From assembly GCF_964031045.1 (NCBI RefSeq), contig NZ_OZ034994.1, positions 620,001-684,000 on the forward strand: 64,000 nt of DNA, read 5' to 3'. Numbering within the stretch: position 1 is the first letter of the stretch; each line of letters begins with the position of its first letter. A model generated the notes under the pieces. It worked only from the letters and a program-made list of their open reading frames with translations, made no database searches and was not told where the DNA came from. Source of the stretch: Spiroplasma endosymbiont of Aspidapion aeneum (GTDB lineage: Bacteria; Bacillota_I; Bacilli_A; Mycoplasmatales; Mycoplasmataceae). A program made the translations under genes and the position numbers. Positions 38,912 through 40,615 of this stretch are shown one piece after another.

Positions 38912-40615
38912 TTATTTTCATCAAGTTTTAGATATTTTATCTAGAAATTCTTCAAACCTGGTTATATTAAACATATTTTTTATTTTATCCATTGCATTCA
39001 AGACAATTTCCTTATTATTCCTTAAACCAGGTCCATCTGCAACATAAATAAACTCATAATTTTTAAAATCTTTTAATTTTTCTTCTAATCTAATAAATCT
39101 TGGTAACTCACTATTTAATTTTGATCCTGAACCATTAAAGAAATTGCATTCTAAACAATATGTTATTTCTCCAATTTTAAAAACAAAATCAAATCTCTTA
39201 TCCTCTTTCAATGATGCTTGACCAAGAATTTTATTTTGTTTTACCTCTTTATCAAAATAAATCACTTTTTCTGTTAATATTTTATCAATTAGATCATTCA
39301 TAAACTGACCAGATTTATTTTTCTTATCATGGGATGATAATCCCAATTTAACACCATATATATATGTTTTTATATCACAGATTTCTGGATTAAGAAATAA
39401 ATTAGTAAGTAAACCAGATTCGTTTATAAATTCAAATACAAGTTCCTTATTATTATAGTTATATTCTATTTCTTTCCTATTATTGTTTACATAAGTAAAC
39501 TTAGCAGTATTATTATGTTCAATTTTATTGTTTGCCAAAAGCATAGGTATTAATTCCAATGAATCTCTATGTTTGTCGAATAAATTATTTAAATTAACAT
39601 TAAACTCTTTGATATTTGGAGAAAGTAAATTATTTAAATTTTTAATTTTATCTTTGTTAAATTCTAAAAATTCATTAATCTTATCTCAAGAAACATATTT
39701 TTTTAAAATATAAGATGTTGCCTTTAATTCCTTAAAATATAATTCTTGATTTAATTTATATTCTTGTTCTCTAGATAAGTTGAAATTATAGATTATTGTT
39801 TCAAAAGTTGAGTTTTGACGATCATTTGCATTAGAATTTATAAATCGATTAACAGGTACTTTATAATTATTAAAATTCTTATATAGTTTATTAATTAATT
39901 CTGTATTATGATTGGTTAAAATTCACTTAATCCCTTTTCTATCTGCCTTTATTAGGAATTCATGCAATCTTTCTTGACCATTTTTCCCAAATGAACCAGA
40001 TGTATATGAGTCAAAACCTTTATTATCAAAATCATAAGGTGGATCTAGAAATATAAAATCTCCTTCATTTGCACTATCTAATATTTCCTCAAAATCATTA
40101 TTTGAAATATAAATTGTATTTTCATTTAAAAATTTTGATATGTTCATTATATTTTCTTGGTTATATAAAGTTGATGATTTTATTATTTCCTTATTATTAA
40201 ATGGCGTATTAAATATATTATCCCTGTTAACTCTGTAAATTCCATTAAAGCAAGTTTTATTCAAGTATATAAATCTTGCAGCAAGCTCAACTTCTTGTAA
40301 CTTAGCTGGGTCTAAATGTCTTATATTATAATAAAAATCTCGTCCTTGCTTATTGTGATTTTTTACATAAGTATCTAATAATGATGTTAAAGATTTTGGA
40401 TTATTTTTAATAATATTTCAAGTCGTAATTAGTTCTATATTTACATCTGAAATAAATGCTCTTCGGGGAACAAGATCAAGAAATAATGCCCCTCCACCAA
40501 TAAATGGTTCAAAATAATTATTAATATCCTTAGGAATAAATAATCTTAAAATATCTAACAACTGTCTTTTACCACCTACTCATTTTACAAATGGTTGTAA
40601 TTTATTGTCACTCAT
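38912..40615 (-). CDS. Fused Dam-type methyltransferase and DpnII-type endonuclease
   Basis: 567 residues in one open frame, verified codon by codon across the junction (39560-39922). Residues 1-270 are a Dam/DpnM-type N6-adenine methyltransferase: KWVGGKRQL (motif X), [11 protein letters not shown] (motif I), [14 protein letters not shown] (motif IV). About residue 300 onward is a DpnII-family endonuclease, including [17 protein letters not shown], and the PD-(D/E)XK core [20 protein letters not shown] with ECN as catalytic end and GSGSKLN. DpnII family enzymes cut GATC, so the predicted site is GATC. Normally these are separate genes. ATG at 40615 follows AAGGGGG. Stop after KISKTWWK. Confidence 0.85.

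Follow-up and report, generated by a model that had tools for sequence, protein, structure and literature searches.

A genuine and unusual fusion of the DpnII kind, in which a methylase (M) and a nuclease (R) are joined in one polypeptide, is encoded on the minus strand of the window, as we call the whole 64,000-nucleotide stretch of Spiroplasma DNA analysed here; the genome is assembled as one 1.21-Mb contig. Our preferred reading, with a probability of about 0.7, is that the gene specifies a complete DpnII-type (GATC) restriction-modification (R-M) system as a single chain, in effect a Type IIC enzyme, derived from head-to-tail dpnM-like and dpnB-like genes. The relevant features are as follows.

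38912..40615, minus strand: fused R-M gene, 567 codons plus stop under code 4 (translation, Pfam, NCBIfam and AF2)
40622..40628, minus strand: ribosome-binding site AAGGGGG, 6 nt upstream of the ATG at 40615 (sequence)
39782..40615, minus strand: methylase half, residues 1-278, Dam/DpnM (alpha-class N6-adenine methyltransferase; PF02086, 2dpm and TIGR00571)
40487..40504, minus strand: AdoMet-binding motif I, FIGGGA, residues 38-43
40034..40045, minus strand: catalytic motif IV, DPPY, residues 191-194
39746..39781, minus strand: linker, residues 279-290 (approximately 12), of near-constant length in the core fused clade (alignments)
38915..39745, minus strand: nuclease half, residues 291-567, DpnII family PD-(D/E)XK (PF04556, BstEII 9ibq and R of pSRQ700)
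39119..39190, minus strand: putative nuclease active site D476, E489 and K499 (KRFDF...; alignment and model)
37625..38860, minus strand: HNH_2/MAG4270-family putative restriction endonuclease, the next gene downstream, 51 nt from the fused gene

A first-pass annotation had proposed a single uninterrupted frame of 567 codons at 38912-40615 under code 4. This is borne out with exact coordinates: the frame, on the minus strand, runs from the ATG at 40615 down to 38915 and stops at 38912, and the plus strand of the same interval contains stops throughout. The DpnM-like and DpnII motifs quoted in that annotation are all present in the 567-residue chain (GGKRQL at 14-19, PFIGGGALF at 37-45 and DPPYDF at 191-196, along with KRFDF and GSGSKLN), and both Pfam domains are complete, PF02086 matching residues 12-253 (E 2e-47) and PF04556 residues 291-558 (E 8e-46). 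TGA is read as tryptophan at six codons (12, 66, 231, 310, 565 and 566), which lie inside domains or at the C terminus and not at the junction.

The N-terminal half contains a complete Dam/DpnM-type methylase (residues 5-278) that scores above the curated cut-offs of both PF02086 (162 bits, cut-off 22) and TIGR00571 (236 bits, cut-off 115). Its best solved relative is DpnM (2dpm, E 5e-55), and comparison of this half of the model with that structure gives a Z of 31.4 and 1.9 A over 251 residues. The FxGGG motif precedes DPPY, as in the alpha class; F38 and G42 are found in 42/42 alignment rows, and D191, P193 and Y194 in 44/44. The half shares 40% identity with M1 of the GATC system of pSRQ700 (LlaDCHI/LlaII), and its sequence suggests that it would methylate the adenine of GATC.

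The C-terminal half contains a complete DpnII-type nuclease (residues 291-558), matched nearly end to end by PF04556 (profile positions 3-276 of 278, 157 bits). Its nearest fold is that of BstEII (9ibq, Z 13.2 over model residues 286-564). D476, E489 and G497-S498-K499 are invariant in all 45 of 45 alignment rows, and the region of D476 and E489 falls on model strands 474-481 and 484-492, where a PD-(D/E)XK site is expected; the fold suggests that D476, E489 and K499 are the catalytic residues. This half would cut unmethylated GATC, judging by a characterised enzyme, R of pSRQ700, with which it shares only 26% identity (E 7e-21). The pSRQ700 system is known to be specific for GATC (PMC11514479, PMC4190342), and this specificity may carry over to the window protein. 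The AF2 model of the fused protein has a pLDDT of 92.8 and a pTM of 0.85, and confidently predicts a DpnM-like fold together with a PD-(D/E)XK half nearest to BstEII. The nuclease half modelled alone, without an alignment, gave an unusable model (pLDDT 35). We also dropped GATC avoidance as a sign of activity: the window genome is at 0.69 (counts based on 464 kb), and relatives without the system are also at 0.71-0.81.

Relatives were sought in 298 genomes of the same order, of which 92 had some match; most of these have a methylase only, or else M and R encoded separately. Intact single-frame fusions in Mollicutes are present in G109 (68% identity to the window protein), G043 (44%) and G036 (38%). 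Others, in the standard code, occur in the Texas Phoenix palm phytoplasma (47%) and in Clostridium sp. C8-1-8 (31%), and a plasmid-form Staphylococcus aureus prophage encodes a further one (WP_001286806.1, 44%). Eight IMG/VR contigs carry the staphylococcal fusion at 87-100% identity, 7 of them intact, and no fused match in isolated phage records reached 80% coverage. In 395 genomes of the class, the intact fusion occurs, among the matches listed, only in the window genome, G109 and G043. The M-R fusion of the DpnII kind is rare but real.

The staphylococcal protein, annotated as a 'DpnII family type II restriction endonuclease', resembles the window protein in architecture, linker length and clade; it differs in its standard code, in having DSPY in motif IV and in being prophage-borne. 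No account that we found describes it as a fusion. The earlier statement that DpnII/MboI systems keep separate genes holds for most relatives, fusions being rare (PMC4176335), but not as a rule, given the precedents of WP_001286806.1 and of Type IIC enzymes.

Three alternatives to a functional one-chain system have to be weighed. The join might be an artefact of assembly or base calling in which a stop or frameshift between two genes was lost; in many relatives just one stop separates M from R in a shared frame, and one error could mimic a fusion. A frameshift or misassembly at 39560-39922, as the first-pass annotation envisaged, is nevertheless contradicted by the fused homologues in independent assemblies (68, 47, 44, 44 and 38% identity). 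Since independent genomes, closed and draft, share this join under two genetic codes, and seven prophage copies have it intact, we consider an artefact extremely improbable. A second alternative is that one frame yields two proteins that work as an ordinary DpnII pair, as might happen through proteolysis or through initiation at a non-standard internal codon. The Clostridium (L059) and G036 (L006) fusions do have an ATG at the junction (in L059 with a strong Shine-Dalgarno sequence before it), which is what more recent stop-loss fusions should show. In the window gene, however, a start scan showed the stretch between codons 230 and 352, which reaches far into R, to be free of in-frame ATG, GTG and TTG, so that a separate nuclease cannot initiate at the junction from such a codon. 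The G043 copy likewise has none of these codons near its junction; the phytoplasma gene has a single one, a TTG at 305. Linker length is conserved as well: across the core clade, approximately 12 residues, with hardly any variation in number, separate the N-[YF] that closes the methylase (277-278) from the nuclease. Two products from the window gene are accordingly improbable.

Slightly less so, but still unlikely, is that the chain is chiefly a GATC methylase with an attenuated or silent nuclease half, methylation being the selected trait. In an engineered Eco29kI fusion, nuclease activity fell by two thirds and 80% of methylation was kept (PMC3039593), and some Mollicute relatives have M with a broken R (e.g. 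G051/L013). Against this, every putative R active-site residue is intact, and R is constrained nearly as M is: between the window and G109, dN/dS is 0.205/1.68 (~0.12) for M and 0.217/1.06 (~0.21) for R, with dS near saturation. These values show purifying selection on both halves, with strong constraint. A complete one-chain R-M system remains our preferred reading.

A 40-row tree of M together with R places the window, G109, phytoplasma, Staphylococcus and G043 fusions in one core clade with support of 100/99, and the fusions of G006 and Clostridium lie outside it; a further tree had 51 rows, without Staphylococcus. A common origin of all fusions was rejected once L033 was added (AU p 0.001), whereas a single origin of the core with L006, L034 and L035 was not rejected (p 0.31). 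Fusions arose more than once, and L006 and L034/L035 may share the origin of the core. Because the core clade spans hosts of different orders with two genetic codes between them, the fused gene has moved horizontally; the join is old and has spread among bacteria, including Staphylococcus prophages. The S. aureus copy lies in the lysogeny region of its prophage, between the repressor side and the integrase, and the G109 copy lies near genes for a T4SS coupling protein (VirD4/TraG) and a MobL relaxase.

In four Mollicute pairs (L004, L005, L007 and L032) and in many others, M and R share a frame broken by just one intervening stop, and such pairs are likely the raw material of fusions; their share is inflated because the loci were chosen by matches spanning both genes. 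In several pairs from Bacteroidota and Clostridia, an in-frame TGA separates M from R. These were left out of the fusion count, as they look fused only under a wrongly applied code 4. An origin through TGA reassignment, in which M-TGA-R would become continuous through tryptophan, was dropped, as no fused gene has TGA at its junction. In some Bacilli (L220 1489-3078, L224 and L227), a different pair is joined: DpnM-type and DpnA-type methylases are fused in a frame of 520-530 amino acids.

Simple repeats interrupt the methylase half of three fused relatives. The fused genes of G029 and G044 contain (AG)24 and (AG)15 tracts, respectively, and are out of frame in the assembly but otherwise open; that of G006 has a run of nine to ten G inside the AdoMet motif, which likewise puts it out of frame. 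The repeats are located as follows.

L034, 6166-6217: simple repeat in the methylase half, out of frame in the assembly
L035, 5280-5309: simple repeat in the methylase half, out of frame in the assembly
L033, 3772-3781: simple repeat in the methylase half, out of frame in the assembly

These tracts suggest a signature of phase variation. Phase variation of the window gene by simple repeats was dropped as an idea, the longest tracts there being A7 and (AT)5. An (AG)26 tract also occurs at a contig end in an uncultured Ureaplasma (L011/L048, 1-52), at the start of a separate dpnM-like gene.

The HNH gene next to the fused gene was considered as a partner and rejected, since it is absent beside the fused gene in G109, G043 and the phytoplasma; it is a member of the defence island around the fused gene. 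A Type I R-M locus (41021-45777 and 45779-48847) has two inverted hsdS genes, at 41809-42939 (plus strand) and 43241-44245 (minus strand), with 47-nt and 34-nt inverted repeats in common (98-100%). A XerC-like recombinase gene (41021-41737) lies beside this pair, forming an invertible specificity system. At 50995-58897 there is a CRISPR array of approximately 30 repeats of 36 nt at 66-nt spacing, with Cas1 and a 1082-aa Cas9, and the CRISPR and R-M loci of the window together make up a large defence island. From 60188 to 64000 and just past the window end are genes for a Z1-domain helicase-like protein and a HATPase_c_3 (MORC/MutL-like) protein, with an N6_N4 methylase just beyond (684100-685038 of the genome, G000); this cluster looks like MutL/MORC-linked restriction. 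A second D12 methylase of the genome (1080623-1081315, L331) is phage-like and not close to Dam.

Single chains that combine M and R make up the established class Type IIC, and the window protein has both in one polypeptide, as do the Type IIC/IIG enzymes MmeI, Eco57I, BcgI, HaeIV and BpuSI. It is not of Type IIG, having the alpha-class motif order and the nuclease at its C terminus. The DpnII, LlaDCHI and MboI family of GATC systems (Type IIP) resembles the window protein in the homology of both domains, in motif order and catalytic residues and in the gene order M then R, but there M and R are separate genes. The window locus also departs from the classical DpnII operon in having no DpnA-type methyltransferase: the sole PF01555 match in the genome is approximately 24 kb away, by the Z1/HATPase cluster. 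Type IIC enzymes mostly have an N-terminal nuclease and a gamma-class methyltransferase and cut away from their site (PMC4081073); most of those known have one shared specificity module, whereas in the window fusion an alpha-class methyltransferase comes first and the nuclease last. BtgZI, a noted exception in Type IIC domain order, has the same arrangement (PMC4081073), but, compared by description only, it recognises GCGATG, cuts 10/14 away and has a Q-variant PD-D/EXK domain. Engineered RM.Eco29kI, likewise a single chain from a Type IIP pair, keeps both activities (PMC3039593); it is artificial, has the order R-M and combines a GIY-YIG nuclease with an m5C methylase. Of the Type IIC systems in a survey covering 2261 genomes, only 0.9%, mainly from Firmicutes, resembled two-gene Type II systems, and such fusions were called rare; Type IIC/IIG systems were over-represented on mobile elements (PMC4176335). 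We found no paper on a natural DpnII-type fusion in the open-access literature, a search that did not extend to REBASE.

On entering a new cell, a restriction system must methylate before it cuts, usually by timing two genes. Joining M and R in one chain regulates nothing by itself, and the first-pass annotation held that a fusion needs other means against self-killing; a plausible means has been described, as an M active as a monomer and an R active only as a dimer have been proposed to avoid self-killing by Type IIC enzymes (PMC12707154). With such an arrangement, a one-chain system could methylate before it cuts on entry. Each half of the window protein would retain its own recognition surface, unlike in most known Type IIC enzymes, with the methylase half acting as a monomer and the nuclease half probably pairing with a second chain to cut both strands. 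At the low concentrations after entry, methylation would come first, and cutting would begin only once enough chain had built up, so that a dimerisation-based delay may be built in.

We put forward more tentatively, as a possibility we hold doubtful, that these proteins form a distinct subclass, single-chain Type IIP. Each chain would hold two self-sufficient GATC-recognising enzymes, monomer/dimer assembly would replace transcriptional timing, and prophages and conjugative elements would spread the gene across genetic codes as a self-contained defence cassette, switched as a unit in some Mollicutes by repeats in the methylase half. If this is true, a cell cannot lose methylation yet keep cutting. 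Phase variation of a fused gene would toggle both activities together, and the out-of-frame repeat-bearing relatives suggest a safe route to phase-varying a whole R-M system. The fusions provide natural cases of Type IIC enzymes arising by gene fusion, a route so far argued mainly from the engineered case, and a natural, conserved and mobile single-chain Type IIP pair offers a clean test of oligomeric assembly alone as the delay. The one-polypeptide design would make a complete defence system transferable as a single gene.
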